Origin: an uncultured Candidatus Saccharibacteria bacterium
GTDB lineage: Bacteria; Patescibacteriota; Saccharimonadia; Saccharimonadales; Saccharimonadaceae
Direction of reading: 5' to 3'
Assembly (NCBI GenBank): GCA_947307225.1
Contig: CAMZIL010000005.1
Location: forward strand, 1-64,000
DNA length: 64,000 nt
Positions 1 through 64,000 of the stretch are shown here, in pieces (position 1 is the first letter of the stretch; the number at the start of each line of letters is the position of its first letter). A program made the position numbers and the translations under genes. The notes under the pieces were generated by a model that made no database searches, was not told the DNA's origin, and saw only the letters and a list, made by a program, of their open reading frames with translations.

Positions 1-7
1 CGAGTCG

Positions 8-104
8 GATGGTTTTCGGAGGCTCTACGGAGGCTACGGCCGAGTAGAAGCAGCGTCCGCCCGTGACGACGGGCCGGGCGACTGCTGCGCCTCTGAAAAC
101 CATC
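8..104 (+). ncRNA. Candidate structured element (long hairpin with conserved core), copy 1
   Basis: GATGGTTTTCGGAGGC (8-23) pairs with GCCTCTGAAAACCATC (89-104), one G-U. Inside are a GGC-UACG-GCC hairpin and a CCCGU-GACG-ACGGG hairpin. Shares core motifs with 62692-62812. Strand and transcription not proven. Confidence 0.5.
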
Positions 105-126
105 TGACGAGAGCAGCCTTTTGAGG

Positions 127-132
127 TATAAT
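127..132 (+). promoter_or_regulatory. Putative -10 (TATAAT) 6 nt before the desulfurase ATG
   Basis: GGTATAATTACAACATG. Confidence 0.55.
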
Positions 133-138
133 TACAAC

Positions 139-1287
139 ATGATTTATCTAGATTACGCTGCCGCAACGCCGCTATCACCAAAAGCTAAGCAAGCTATGCT
201 GCCTTATTTTGATGAGAAGTTTTTCAATCCATCGGCTGCATATTTGCCTGCAACGGAAATTCGTCGCGAATATGAATCGGCGAAGGGCGAGATTGCGCAT
301 GTTATTGGCGCAAAAGGCGCGGATCTAGTGATGACTTCTGGTGCAACCGAGGCAAATAGCCTTGTTTTTGCGACTGTTCCGGACGATGCTGAAGTTTTAA
401 TATCCGCCGTCGAGCATCCATCGATTCTAGAAAATGCAAAGCAGAAAAACTACCAAGTAATTGCTGTCGACGAAACGGGCCGAATCAATCTTGATGATTT
501 CAAGCAAAAACTCACGCCGCGCACGCAACTAGTTTCGGTTTGTCTTGCTAGTAGCGAACTCGGCACGATTCAGCCACTAAGCGATATCGCGCGCATTATT
601 AACGATGAGCGAACGCGCCGTGCATTCGCAGGCGAAAAGACCCCGCTATATTTCCATAGTGATGCTTCGCAGGGCCTTGGCCTAATGGAGGTAAAAGTCT
701 CGCGCCTCGGCGTGGATCTTTTGACGATTAATGCCGCGAAGGTATATGGTCCGAAGGGAATCGGTGCGCTCTATGTTGGACATAATGCCCGTATCAAACC
801 TCAGGTTCATGGCGGTGGTCAAGAGATGGGATTGCGTAGTGGGACGGAAAACGTTCCTGCGACGATCGCATTTGCGACAGCGATTCTTGACGCAGAAAAA
901 CATCTTGCTGGCGAGCGTAAACGTCTCGGCGATTTGCGCGCGAAATTCAAAAACCTTCTTGCCGAAAAGATCGATGGTATTGAATTTCTCGGCAAAGAAA
1001 AAACTCAATTAGCAAACTTCCTACCAATTACCATTCCGGGGCTAGATGCGGAGCGCCTAATATTCGCGCTCGAGGATCGCGGCGTCTATCTTTCCACCGG
1101 TGCCGCCTGTGCAGCAAGCAAAGGCGAAAAATCTCCGACTCTCCGTGCAATTGGCTTAAATGATTCTCGAATCGCTGGTTCTTTGCGTATTACACTTGGT
1201 CGCCCAACAACCGAAGAGGATGTTATCGCGGCTGCAGACGTAATCGCAGACATCGTTTCTAGCGAGCGAGCTCGTCTCGCAAAATAA
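139..1287 (+). CDS. Cysteine desulfurase (NifS/IscS family, class V aminotransferase)
   Basis: IYLDYAAATPLS...TSGATEANSLV...SDASQG...NAAKVYGPKGIGALYV...GGGQEMGLRSGTENV...STGAACAASKGEKSPTLRAIG. ATG at 139 preferred over the upstream TTG. Confidence 0.93.
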   Translation: MIYLDYAAATPLSPKAKQAMLPYFDEKFFNPSAAYLPATEIRREYESAKGEIAHVIGAKGADLVMTSGATEANSLVFATVPDDAEVLISAVEHPSILENAKQKNYQVIAVDETGRINLDDFKQKLTPRTQLVSVCLASSELGTIQPLSDIARIINDERTRRAFAGEKTPLYFHSDASQGLGLMEVKVSRLGVDLLTINAAKVYGPKGIGALYVGHNARIKPQVHGGGQEMGLRSGTENVPATIAFATAILDAEKHLAGERKRLGDLRAKFKNLLAEKIDGIEFLGKEKTQLANFLPITIPGLDAERLIFALEDRGVYLSTGAACAASKGEKSPTLRAIGLNDSRIAGSLRITLGRPTTEEDVIAAADVIADIVSSERARLAK

Positions 1288-16645: not shown

Positions 16646-16723
16646 AAATAACCATAAAAAGCATCTACAATAATTAGCCACGAGCATGATAAAATAGACA
16701 TTAGTAAATAAGTGGAGTTACTA

Positions 16724-19678
16724 ATGAAAAGAATGAAGCGCCAAAGCGTTTGGCGAAGCAGGGCTTATGTGCTGTCTGTATTAGTATTTACAGTCAGTTT
16801 TATTACATCTCTCGCTTCAACTACTTCCGTAATTGCGGAAGCAGCAAAATTTAAAATTAAAGCAGCTGAAATTACTACAATGTCGGCTGGCGCAACTGGT
16901 GCTATCACCGGGTTCGACGATTCAACAATCGCGAGCGAGGTGTCTTTCTATAAGCTTAACGACAGTGCAACTTTCAAGGTAACGCTCGAGAATACCGACT
17001 CAGTTGACCATGTCATTAAGGGTATTTCCGATAATAATTCGAACGAAAACATCTCGTATTCTTATGATAATCACGCAGATGAAACCATTACGGCTGGCAG
17101 CGCATTCGACTTTGTCTTTACGGCTAAATATGTTAAGTCCGTGGCCGACATGAGCAAGCGCGCTCAGAGTCTAAGCGTCGAGTTCGCAATCCAGTTTACA
17201 GACATCGCTGAGCCAGAGACTATTAGCATCACTCCAAATACGCACGACGGTATAACGGGCAGCGTCATTATTCTTTCTATTTCGTCGCTCGGCCTAATTG
17301 TCTGCGCAGTTATTTTCATCAAGAATCACAAGCAGTCCACTAAGGCTCTCGGTGTCGCAGCGACTGTTATTGCGGCGGCTGTTATCGCTACGAGCGTCAG
17401 CGCTATTGCTACTGAAGTAAACTCCTTTACTCTAACTACGAACTACGGCCTCTACGACAAGGTCGTTGTCAGTTATGGCGATAATGACTATATTGTCGAC
17501 TACGGCAAGACACTCGAGGAAGCTGATGAAATTGAGATTCCGGGCGTGACTGGCCAAAGCTTCGTCGGCTGGCAGGACGAGGATGGCAACGATATTGATC
17601 CTACGGCTCCAATTACTGAAGACATTACAATTTTTGCCAAGACGAATATGAATCATTACTCAATCGCCTTCGATAAAAACGAAAGTGCTGCTACTGGCGA
17701 GATGAATTCGCTCGATGCTATATATGGCACACCTGTCACTTTAACTGGCAACGCATTTTCTTGGACTGGCCACACCTTCGCTGGCTGGGCCACCACGCCG
17801 ACTGGTGATGTCGCTTACGCGGATGGGGAAGAGGTCAATAATCTTACTGCCGAGAATAACGGCACAGTCACGCTTTATGCGAAGTGGGAAGATGAGACTC
17901 TCGTTCTTAACTTTAACGGTAATGGCCGCAAATTCTCTAATGGTGCGGGCGTAAATACTGTTAAGGTAACCGGCACCTGTGGTGATTCTTATACTCGTGC
18001 ACGTCAGAAATTCTCACATACACCTAATATCGATGACAATGGCGTACGCAACGGCGACTACGCGACATACATCCAAGATATCGATGTCGTTACGTTCCCG
18101 GGCGCCGCAAAACTTCATGCGGAAATCCAGTATAGCACTCAGACAGATAAAGATTGGCTATATGTTATTAAGGGCGTGTATACTGGCACGGTGTCGCAGT
18201 ATATATATGACAGCAATAAGCTCGCTGGGTATAATGGCGGGAATGACACTATGCGGACGGCATCTTTGGATATTCCAGGCGACACTGCATCCTTTGTCTT
18301 CTATTCGGATTACATGACTAACTATTATGGCTATTATGCAGTGATTGAGGCCTACGACGAAAACGATAATCTCATCGGTAGCCCGGTCGCAGACTGTAAT
18401 CGCGAGGTTTATTCTGGCGCATTCGAAGACTTGCCGACTGGCAACTATTTCTTCAAGGGGTGGTCTGAGGACATTAATGATGAGAGAGGCCTATATACGA
18501 ATATGGCCGACATTCGCGATCATGTTCCAGGCGTAGTTGGCCAAACTAAGACTCTCTATGCAATCTATGAGCAGCTTTATACTATAAAGTACGACGGTAA
18601 TGGTAGTACTACCGGTACTATGGGGGAAGCATTTACGAAGAGCGGCATGCATAAAGGCGAGTACTATTATTTGAACGCACCTAATTTCCTGCGCGACGAT
18701 TATGGCTTCATTGGTTGGAGTATGGATAAAAATGCTCAGCCGGGTGGCAGCTCAAAGATTTATGGTCCGAACGAGATGATTACGCTTAATCAGACCATTA
18801 CGGACGGCGCCGTGAATGACGGCGAAATCATCATGTATGCAATTTGGGCGCCGAAGAGTACGACCTATACCTTGCAGACCTTTAATGCGACTACGTTTGA
18901 GCTGACGAATCCGAATACGACCATAACGGCATTGACGGATACGCGCGATGGCCAAACCTATGCTGTTGCAAAATTGGCAGACGGCAAATGGTGGATGATT
19001 GAAAACTTGCGCTTCAACCCGACGGGCAAGGAATTGAATGATGAGAATACGAACCATCCAACTGCGTCGTTTGTAAACACGGCGAAGAATCTTACTACTC
19101 TAACAACTCCGGCTGCATGCGGCGATGATGGCCAGTATACCTCCGGTTGTATTAACAAGTATTCGCTTTTGATTTCCGATATTAATTCCGAGAGTACTCC
19201 TTCGCCAACGGCGACGAGTGGTCAGACCTATGAGTTTGGCGCACACTATAACTGGTACACTGCTACGGCTGGAAATGGTGCATATAGTGTCACGAACTTT
19301 AATGAAGTCACGGGTGATCTTTGCCCAGCTGGCTGGCGCCTTCCATCTAATCATTATACTGATTCGACCAAGTCTGATTTCTCGCAGCTTGATTTGGCGC
19401 TTGGCGGTAATGGCGCTATTCAATATCACGGCAATTATTCCGAAACGGAAACAAGCTATCCGAACAACTTTACCTATGCCGGTAAAGCTATCAGCCGCGT
19501 TAAAATTGAAGTCGGGCAGCGTAGTACTAATGGACAATACTGGGGCAGAACTAGTGGCCGCTCGGAAGAGTACGCCTCCTACTATCTCGTATCAATTTCG
19601 AAGAACGATATCCATTATTCTGACCAGGGGTATTTAGCGAAATCTTCATATCTTCCAATCCGCTGTCTAGCGCAGTGA
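16724..19678 (+). CDS. Large secreted/membrane surface protein with InlB-like beta repeats and a C-terminal Fibrobacter-succinogenes-major-domain-like region
   Basis: Signal peptide; internal TM pair; Y-x-GW-x-DE / LYAKW repeats; DGQTYAVAKLADGKWWMIENLRF...CPAGWRLPS. Confidence 0.8.
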   Translation: MKRMKRQSVWRSRAYVLSVLVFTVSFITSLASTTSVIAEAAKFKIKAAEITTMSAGATGAITGFDDSTIASEVSFYKLNDSATFKVTLENTDSVDHVIKGISDNNSNENISYSYDNHADETITAGSAFDFVFTAKYVKSVADMSKRAQSLSVEFAIQFTDIAEPETISITPNTHDGITGSVIILSISSLGLIVCAVIFIKNHKQSTKALGVAATVIAAAVIATSVSAIATEVNSFTLTTNYGLYDKVVVSYGDNDYIVDYGKTLEEADEIEIPGVTGQSFVGWQDEDGNDIDPTAPITEDITIFAKTNMNHYSIAFDKNESAATGEMNSLDAIYGTPVTLTGNAFSWTGHTFAGWATTPTGDVAYADGEEVNNLTAENNGTVTLYAKWEDETLVLNFNGNGRKFSNGAGVNTVKVTGTCGDSYTRARQKFSHTPNIDDNGVRNGDYATYIQDIDVVTFPGAAKLHAEIQYSTQTDKDWLYVIKGVYTGTVSQYIYDSNKLAGYNGGNDTMRTASLDIPGDTASFVFYSDYMTNYYGYYAVIEAYDENDNLIGSPVADCNREVYSGAFEDLPTGNYFFKGWSEDINDERGLYTNMADIRDHVPGVVGQTKTLYAIYEQLYTIKYDGNGSTTGTMGEAFTKSGMHKGEYYYLNAPNFLRDDYGFIGWSMDKNAQPGGSSKIYGPNEMITLNQTITDGAVNDGEIIMYAIWAPKSTTYTLQTFNATTFELTNPNTTITALTDTRDGQTYAVAKLADGKWWMIENLRFNPTGKELNDENTNHPTASFVNTAKNLTTLTTPAACGDDGQYTSGCINKYSLLISDINSESTPSPTATSGQTYEFGAHYNWYTATAGNGAYSVTNFNEVTGDLCPAGWRLPSNHYTDSTKSDFSQLDLALGGNGAIQYHGNYSETETSYPNNFTYAGKAISRVKIEVGQRSTNGQYWGRTSGRSEEYASYYLVSISKNDIHYSDQGYLAKSSYLPIRCLAQ

Positions 19679-36154: not shown

Positions 36155-36182
36155 CTCTATCGAGTAGAGACTTTTTTGTATA

Positions 36183-36209
36183 TTAGCACTCTTGCATTGT
36201 GAGTGCTAA
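36183..36209. promoter_or_regulatory. CIRCE element (HrcA operator) at clpC
   Basis: TTAGCACTC-N9-GAGTGCTAA exact. Confidence 0.95.
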
Positions 36210-36227
36210 TTGTCTATAATAGGGGTT

Positions 36228-38726: not shown

Positions 38727-39842
38727 ATGACACCAGAGCAAAAGCCGGGTTTTTCTGAAAGCGATAACGGCATAGTTTTGAATAATGATGAGGCTCAGCG
38801 CGTTAATATGGCGCCAGCTCAGGCTACTCCTGCGCCACAACCGCAGACTCAACCGCAATCAGATAATAAGCGCAAGAATCCAGCGAAGCTAATCGTTTCG
38901 CTTTTGGTGATTGCAGCGCTCGGTTTTGCGATCTCGCAGATTAATTTTACGGCTATCGTTGATAATATTACGGCCATCGGCTATGAAGCGCCGGCGGACT
39001 TGCAGAAGATAATTGATGATATCGAGCTGACGGATGATGGCATGCGCATATTAAAAGCGACGCGCCCAGAATTGCAGGGAGCGGACGATTTTAATAACAG
39101 CTGCCTTAATGATTCTGGCGAGTACTCTGTCCTCGGCTGCTATTCCTCGAATCGGGTATTTGTTTACAACATTTCGGAAGAATCTCTCGATGGCATTCGT
39201 CAGACTACCTTGGCGCACGAGTTCCTTCATGCGGTCTGGCACCGCATGAGCCAGGGCGAGCGCGAAGAACTCGGCAAAGCCCTTCGCGAGATTTACGACA
39301 ACAATGAAGCCATCAGGGAACACATGAATAATTATGAAGATGGCAGCAACAATTATAACGAGTTGCATTCGGTTATCGGGACGACCGTTAAGCGGGATGA
39401 TTTGCCGGAAGTGCTCAAAAAACACTACGCTAAATACTTCAAAAATCCGTCAAAACTGGTAACCTATTACGATAAGTACTACGCAAGCTACAAGCAGGCA
39501 TCTACGCGTATAAAAGAGCTAGAGCCGTTGATCGAAAAGCGCCGCACTACGCTTAAAGAAATGGAAGAAAAGTATACAAAAGATAATGATCAGTTGACGA
39601 AAGATATTAACGATCATAATGCTCGCGCGCGCACGCCGAACGGGTACTCGACCGTAGAGGAATTTAATAATGCCTATTCGGCGCTTGTTGACCGCAAAAA
39701 TAAAATGACCGCCGATTATAGGGCGCTTAATGAGTATCTAGAAGAAACAAACCGGCTAATTGATGAATATAACAATAATGCTCTTCGTATGAACAAGTTT
39801 CAAGAGAGCATTAACAGCCGCGTCGGCGATAAGGAAGATTAG
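38727..39842 (+). CDS. Membrane-anchored protein with HExxH motif (putative metallopeptidase)
   Basis: Single TM then [17 protein letters not shown]; coiled-coil C-terminus. Confidence 0.6.
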
Positions 39843-39865
39843 CACTCTTGCATTTCGAGTGCTAG
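39839..39865. promoter_or_regulatory. CIRCE element (HrcA operator) at clpP
   Basis: TTAGCACTC-TTGCATTTC-GAGTGCTAG; overlaps the stop codon of the upstream gene. Confidence 0.9.
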
Positions 39866-39882
39866 TCGTTTATACTGAAAGT

Positions 39883-62691: not shown

Positions 62692-62812
62692 AGAGTTGCG
62701 CCGTATGCCTACAAGGAGCTCGCGCAGGCCACGGCCGAGCGTGAGGAGCAAGCTACCCGCGATGGTGGGCTAGCTCGACGACGTTCTCCTTGCGGGTATA
62801 TGGCACAACTCT
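62692..62812 (+). ncRNA. Candidate structured element, copy 2
   Basis: About 27-bp outer stem with 2 mismatches (62692-62718 / 62786-62812); inner GGC-CACG-GCC-GA and CCCGC-GAUG-GUGGGC motifs matching the core of 8-104. Confidence 0.5.
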
Positions 62813-62837
62813 GTATCTGATGGTATAATAATTAATT

Positions 62838-64000
62838 ATGAGCCATTATGATCCACTAAAAATCGAAGAAAAATGGCAAAAACGCTGGGAAGAAGAGCAG
62901 CCTTTTGCCGCCAAAGACAACGATAATCGGCCAAAGATGTTCCTCGCCGAGATGTTCCCATATCCATCTGGCGCAGGTCTCCATGTTGGTCACGTCCGCA
63001 ACTTCAGTATCGTTGACTGTCTCGCGCGTTTTTATACGCAGCAAGAGATGAACGTTCTTCGCCCATTTGGCTATGATACTTTTGGTCTTCCAGCAGAGAA
63101 CTATGCAATTAAAACTGGCATTTCTCCGCAAGAAGTGACGAAGACGAATATTGATAACTTCCGCAAGCAGGCGAAACGCCTCGGCTATGCAATCGACTGG
63201 TCTCGCGAAATCAATACCTCCGACCCGGCATACTACAAATGGACTCAATGGTGCTTCCTTCAGCTCTTCAAGAAGGGGCTAGCTTATCAGGCAGAAAACT
63301 ATCAGTGGTGGTGCCCGGTAGATCAGACCGTGCTTGCAAACGAGCAGGTCGAAAATGGCTGCTGCTGGCGCTGTGGTCACGAAGTCGAAAAGAAAAAGAT
63401 GAAGCAGTGGTTCTTCAAAATTACTGCCTATGCCGATGAATTGCTTGACGAAATTGATTCGCTTGATTGGCCAGAAAAAATCAAGACCATGCAGAAAAAC
63501 TGGATCGGCCGCAGTGAAGGTGCTGAAGTTGATTTCTTGATCAAAGATCATAAAGAAACCGTTCGCGTCTTTACGACTCGTCCGGATACGCTATTTGGCG
63601 CAACCTTCCTCGTCCTCGCTCCAGAGCATCCGCTCATTACGAAGATAACTTCTGAAGATGCACGCAAAAAGATGACTCAGTATTGCAAGGATGCAATCAA
63701 GAAATCTGAAATTGAGCGTCAGGAAAACAAAGAAAAGACAGGCGTCTTTACGGGCGCATACGCAATTAACCCAGTCAACGGCAAGGAAATTCCAATTTGG
63801 GTCGCCGACTATGTTCTCAGCGGCTACGGCACTGGTGCGATTATGGCCGTTCCTGCTCATGATGAGCGCGACTATGAATTTGCAGAAAAGTTTGATCTTC
63901 CAATCGTGAAAGTTATTGAAAAACCAGAAGACGTCGACGACGATTCGAAGTGCTATCACGGCGAAGGCAAGATGGTGAACTCCGAGCAGTTTAATGGTAT
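62838..64000 (+). CDS. leuS: Leucyl-tRNA synthetase, 5' part (runs off the window)
   Basis: MSHYDPLKIEEKWQKRWEE, FPYPSGAGLHVGHVRNFSIVD, YQWWCPVDQTVLANEQV. Confidence 0.96.
   Translation, partial: MSHYDPLKIEEKWQKRWEEEQPFAAKDNDNRPKMFLAEMFPYPSGAGLHVGHVRNFSIVDCLARFYTQQEMNVLRPFGYDTFGLPAENYAIKTGISPQEVTKTNIDNFRKQAKRLGYAIDWSREINTSDPAYYKWTQWCFLQLFKKGLAYQAENYQWWCPVDQTVLANEQVENGCCWRCGHEVEKKKMKQWFFKITAYADELLDEIDSLDWPEKIKTMQKNWIGRSEGAEVDFLIKDHKETVRVFTTRPDTLFGATFLVLAPEHPLITKITSEDARKKMTQYCKDAIKKSEIERQENKEKTGVFTGAYAINPVNGKEIPIWVADYVLSGYGTGAIMAVPAHDERDYEFAEKFDLPIVKVIEKPEDVDDDSKCYHGEGKMVNSEQFNG

Follow-up and report, generated by a model that had tools for sequence, protein, structure and literature searches.

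The hairpin-forming sequence at the beginning of the window (the whole stretch of 64,000 nucleotides analysed here) is likely to be a copy of a palindromic element that is dispersed, mobile and probably selfish. It is a member of a large family without an existing name. The predicted minimum free energy of the first 120 nucleotides is -76.3 kcal/mol, compared with a mean of -44.6 kcal/mol for shuffled sequences (z = -8.38); none of 200 shuffles folded as well. The fold bore out the hairpins described in the original prediction, and the outer arms (20 nt each, 90% complementary) run slightly beyond the extent of 8-104 given there. Since position 1 of the window is also the first base of contig C5, the 5′ arm of this copy is probably cut short. 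The features of the two copies are listed in Table 1.

Table 1. Positions of the element copies and of the neighbouring sequence features in the window
Feature	Position	Strand	Basis or remark
Copy 1, 84-position model match	15..97	+	Covariance model R1, 92.5 bits
Outer stem of copy 1, 5′ arm, location-specific	4..23	+	Inverted repeat and fold
Outer stem of copy 1, 3′ arm	89..108	+	Inverted repeat and fold
Hairpin A: CUAC, GGA-GA internal loop, GGC-UACG-GCC	25..47	+	Fold
Hairpin B, apical CCCGU-GACG-ACGGG at 60-73	about 50..88	+	Fold
TATAAT box for cysteine desulfurase, shortly beyond copy 1	127..132	+	
Cysteine desulfurase gene (Aminotran_5), neighbour and not part of the element	139..1287	+	ATG at 139
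Copy 2, model match	62711..62793	+	47.5 bits with R1, 69.1 bits with R2
TATAAT box downstream of copy 2	62824..62829	+	Ends 8 nt ahead of the ATG (62838)

The earlier claim that the hairpin with the conserved core is repeated was confirmed by the covariance model, which placed a second copy near the other end of the window. This copy was missed by simple sequence patterns, and only the covariance model located it. Its stem runs about 20 nt beyond the model match on each side. The gene starting at 62838 is probably an aminoacyl-tRNA synthetase gene, leuS by the motif FPYPSGAGLHVGH. Both copies lie directly upstream of a TATAAT box, as had been described, and the boxes end 6 nt (copy 1) and 8 nt (copy 2) before the ATG. 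In genome G032 the site of copy 2 (L203, upstream of a leuS-like gene) is without the family element and bears a structured insert of another kind, in which there are CGTTTCC-GGAAACG hairpins.

Elsewhere in the window there are two CIRCE-like sites (TTAGCACTC-N9-GAGTGCTAA) at 36182-36218 and 39838-39874. They are situated ahead of a ClpB/ClpA-like gene at 36210 (NCBIfam) and near 39859, respectively, their sequences suggesting HrcA heat-shock control. The protein encoded by 16712-19678 is 988 aa long and has a FISUMP domain (TIGR02145) at its C terminus.

Two covariance models were used for searching: R1 was built from five genomic copies and R2 from 80 copies. The model E-values are rough and the genomes compared are drafts. 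To judge from the small genome sizes and from how diverse the families are, these bacteria would be Patescibacteria, probably Saccharibacteria. R1 found seven copies in the genome of the window (1.07 Mb, 50 contigs). Among the 61 relatives searched, the element was present in 24 of the 37 genomes of the same genus, with 1-10 copies in each. Searching the bacterial family with R2 revealed the element in 52 of 199 genomes, representing 16 of 61 genera. The highest copy number among the matches listed was at least 22 per genome, all per-genome counts obtained with R2 being lower bounds, as the filters passed no more than 22 candidates of each genome to scoring. Of 381 genomes sampled across the phylum, 12 matched, and these include weak matches in other families, in which hairpin A (GNAG...CGAG) and the long arms are kept and hairpin B is different. 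Several copies are located at contig ends (G000:C5:1, the end of G000:C18, G008:C49:76, G010:C26:10 and G027:C1:267), which suggests that the long hairpins break the assembly. Phage, plasmid and viral collections contained no relative of the element at the sensitivity used, and a phage or plasmid origin was rejected because these collections held no similar DNA. A literature search, conducted mostly outside the subscription journals, found no such elements described for these bacteria.

The 84-nt core forms a three-way junction, whose secondary structure is conserved and covarying. In the alignment of 80 distinct copies 28 of the 30 base pairs showed two-sided changes, and 94.8% of the alignment cells were paired. 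The covariation score was 0.765 versus 0.233 in shuffled alignments (none of 500 shuffles reached the observed value), and the covariation was lost when the pairing partners were slid. The most conserved signature is GNAG...CGAG in hairpin A. The loops of hairpins A and B also covary: CG at the end of loop A is accompanied by NNCG in loop B in 56 copies and CU by NNAG in 18 copies, whereas CG in loop A together with A in loop B occurs in only four copies. On a tree constructed without the loop columns, about 15 changes were counted in loop A and 16 in loop B, with 12 falling on the same branches; these counts are approximate, given the noise in a tree built from sequences of 80 nt. The simplest reading of the sequence data would be a tertiary contact between the two loops. 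Past the ends of the model, the outer stem contains 74 G.T but 25 A.C pairs, an excess indicating that one of the strands is the folding one. Folding of one strand is expected of RNA or single-stranded DNA, and not of a symmetric cruciform.

Several of these properties would also be expected of a structured regulatory or processing RNA. In such a case the sense strand would be transcribed by read-through or from other promoters, it would fold and affect RNA stability or expression, and the covariation would reflect selection on the RNA. The strong covariation including the loop-loop contact, the purine-rich GNAG/CGAG internal loop and the excess of G.T over A.C pairs on the sense strand are consistent with this explanation. 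So is the occupation of the same sites in different species (the 3′ end of rpoD, upstream of dnaG, and groES-groEL), a pattern that points to vertical persistence over a long time and perhaps to a function for the host. On the other hand, the element had no match among the 4227 Rfam families at either gathering or permissive thresholds.

The genomic placement of the copies provided further arguments against an RNA. The genes flanking the 80 copies are divergent in 24 cases, convergent in 19, and co-directional in 18 and 11; the remaining copies are at contig ends. Location in 24 divergent spacers and the lack of a fixed partner gene do not favour a regulatory or processing RNA. Upstream of the copies the sense TATAAT sequence (sigma-70 type consensus) was not enriched: five were found between -250 and 0, compared with about 10 expected. 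This failure to find an upstream sense promoter argues against a regulatory RNA and also against the separate transcript considered in the original prediction. Downstream, within 50 nt of the copies, there are 32 sense TATAAT boxes. Where such a box precedes a start codon, the distance is 6-8 nt in 23 of 23 cases, implying that mRNAs without a leader are frequent in the lineage, and that the element is upstream of, and outside, the transcripts of these genes. The suggestion that copy 1 does not form the 5′ UTR of the cysteine desulfurase mRNA is thus supported.

A -10-like box was found not more than 60 nt from the stem end in 38 of the 45 copies that have a co-directed downstream gene. In 42 of 56 decided cases the nearer gene lies on the 3′ side of the element, compared with 14 on its 5′ side (Wilcoxon p = 1.3e-5). 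Both observations would be compatible with a cis-acting role at the DNA level, in which a cruciform or hairpin ahead of promoters would serve to insulate or tune transcription or to bind a nucleoid protein. However, the proximity of the 3′ side holds for promoters and stop codons alike, and placement is equally tight against the stop codons of converging genes. Moreover, the presence of the element is patchy, differing between close relatives, coding sequences are invaded in other genera, and a strand-symmetric cruciform should not yield more G.T than A.C pairs. We consider a cis-acting role of this kind quite improbable.

The very stable stem and the many copies at gene ends are reminiscent of a bidirectional intrinsic terminator, but a T-tract (at least 5 T in 8 nt) followed the stem in only 5 of 80 copies, compared with 4 in a control stretch. 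Divergent spacers and spots immediately upstream of promoters are also occupied. The lack of the T-tract and the placement upstream of promoters refute the terminator interpretation for most copies, and its probability appears negligible. The same T-tract result, along with the use of divergent, convergent and co-directional spacers, contradicted another option of the original prediction, namely that the structure is the 3′ end or terminator of an upstream transcript. Of the options offered there, it was the DNA-level element that gained support, in the form of a dispersed family, which is apparently mobile and enters coding sequence as well.

In the window's genus no long ORF spans the element (0 of 80 copies). 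In genera g34, g49, g83 and g26 the element was found in frame inside long ORFs, in both orientations and in several frames. The host proteins, as identified by Pfam and NCBIfam, are a UvrD/PcrA-like helicase, LeuRS, a Mur ligase, FemAB, Der (two genera), TilS (two genomes), a Pyr_redox protein, ValRS, IleRS, PolA, TopA and MetRS. In the helicase, Der, ValRS, IleRS, PolA and TopA the family match extends on both sides of the element. The helicase contains two insertions, both encoding the peptide PQTRCRPTLSSQDGRTSFSPVGCERSE. Both inserts are absent from the helicase orthologs of G125 and G069, the latter having a short unrelated insertion at one of the two insert sites, and the G150 ortholog lacks the insert at the one site covered. 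In a LeuRS-like ORF carrying the element (L175) residues 425-538 match a NUDIX domain, which sits between the editing and the anticodon-binding domains. In-frame insertion in either orientation is difficult to reconcile with a structured regulatory RNA, and we regard that explanation as unlikely.

The outer arms have a different character from the core. In the window's genus they are unrelated between copies, yet complementary inside each copy: the 60-nt flanks beyond the core had a median local score of 36 within a copy versus 14 between copies. The gapped extension of the stem past the model has a median length of 39 nt. The arms often reach the upstream edge of the -10 box of the neighbouring gene, and they can include an inverted copy of the adjacent promoter sequence. 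The arm at L090 holds the last codons of rpoD plus their inverted copy. Another arm holds the ribosome-binding region, the start codon and the first codons of groEL plus their inverted copy, and at the lepA site coding ends are present in both arms. At L051, L081 and L095 extra units consisting of the 5′ arm and the 5′ part of the core, partial or complete, are stacked on the 5′ side. The stacked units look as if new copies formed repeatedly at the 3′ boundary.

Comparison of genomes whose flanking sequences are 94-98% identical showed that some copies are 96-99%, others only 63-70% identical. Divergent copies in near-identical flanks differ by up to 15 two-sided pair changes. Template switching during replication yields block-wise, pairing-preserving rewriting (PMC8794818). 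The block-wise rewriting of the copies fits such a process, and part of the stem covariation may therefore be mutational. Covariation between the loops is not expected from template switching. It is likely that the arms are renewed by this mechanism.

Simpler rules for the origin of the arms did not hold. The assumption that the arms are always pre-existing palindromes of the target was unsupported in divergent promoter regions. One relative has an empty hairpin where another genome carries the element, and this may be a deletion. That the arms always consist of native flank plus its inverted copy fits the rpoD, groEL and dnaG sites; the partly shared arms in G118 and G189 indicate that this rule is not general. 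A strict 5′/3′ polarity of the native sequence proved to be just a tendency.

Mobility is suggested by near-identical units. G189 contains a 137-nt and a 200-nt unit, each present twice, with 98.5% identity and unrelated flanks. In G165 one helicase gene contains two cores, separated by about 700 nt, which are 95.8% identical over 95 nt, and their arms are wholly different, each pair being self-complementary. A site that carries the element in G032 has no core, only a short hairpin in G008, where the flanks are about 97-98% identical. The G008 site may be empty or may have lost the element by deletion, and many cases of absence may be deletions rather than empty sites. Target-site duplications were not recognised, the boundaries being hidden by the inverted arms.

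Transposition of a REP/REPIN- or MITE-type element by a known transposase would agree with the size of the element, with its intergenic spread and with the head-to-head pairs, as in REP dimers (PMC3733652). However, the Y1 transposase (Y1_Tnp, PF01797) was found in none of the 15 bearers tested, and within the genus it was found only in G005 and G021, both of which lack the element. This result largely refutes RAYT-driven movement. Furthermore, the arms are not shared terminal repeats, and we consider transposition of this type very unlikely. Reverse transcriptase is absent from most bearers and was rejected as the mover for this reason. No other gene that would mobilise the element turned up.

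We propose that the mobile palindromic element moves as DNA or via a folded single strand, and that it would be mobilised by some host or trans-acting enzyme. The folded core would stall polymerases, then fold-back (template-switch) synthesis would build the arms from local sequence and repeatedly re-match them. In the window's genus copies would persist only between genes, beside promoters and gene ends. A bolder interpretation, which we put forward as a tentative and rather doubtful one, is that the family represents a new class of mobile elements. In such a class the folded core would be the sole inherited part, and the arms would be self-made by fold-back copying of the local target, each copy thus being a self-recopying site-specific palindrome. 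Elements of this class would invade essential genes, occur phylum-wide and use a dedicated enzyme.

Among known systems the closest in behaviour are the Rickettsia palindromic elements (RPE) and their Wolbachia relatives (WPE). RPEs are palindromes of about 100-150 bp, which are intergenic or inserted in frame in conserved genes (PMC3767692, PMC2229807, PMC10969869). The element described here shares with them the self-complementary structure, the size of about 100-150 bp, the multi-copy occurrence, the reduced host genome and the in-frame insertion in pre-existing ORFs. It appears to work like an RPE, the likeness meant here being one of behaviour. It differs in coming, as we infer, from another bacterial lineage, in having a three-way-junction core with a covarying loop-loop contact, in its site-specific arms, which can take up sequence of the neighbouring gene, and in being strictly non-genic in the window's genus. 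In-frame palindromic invaders have been known mainly from Rickettsia and Wolbachia, and a second case, apparently unrelated, from another lineage of bacteria with reduced genomes would point to a general phenomenon. An element that stays outside genes in one genus and is inserted in many essential genes elsewhere offers a natural experiment on insertion tolerance.

With the REP/REPIN/BIME sequences associated with RAYT the element shares the dispersed, extragenic, palindromic character and the head-to-head pairs, which are made of two different subtypes. REPs are 20-40 bp long, whereas the core of the element is much larger (84 nt), and the bearers tested lack the Y1 transposase gene. MITEs such as ERIC, Correia/NEMIS and RUP are similarly small, non-coding, non-autonomous and hairpin-forming. 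In contrast to MITEs, the arms of the element are not a shared terminal inverted repeat (they are partly shared in G118 and G189), and neither a parent element nor target duplication was recognised.

The creation of stems and the maintenance of their perfect pairing by arm-to-arm copying are known from hairpin evolution by template switching (PMC8794818). The element described here also carries a warning that striking base-pair covariation can partly be produced by mutation, and not by RNA selection alone. Inverted repeats inside genes have been described as the coding palindromes of nematomorph mitochondria (PMC6649704). The difference from both of these systems is that in the present family the process seems to be tied to a core that is conserved and spreads.
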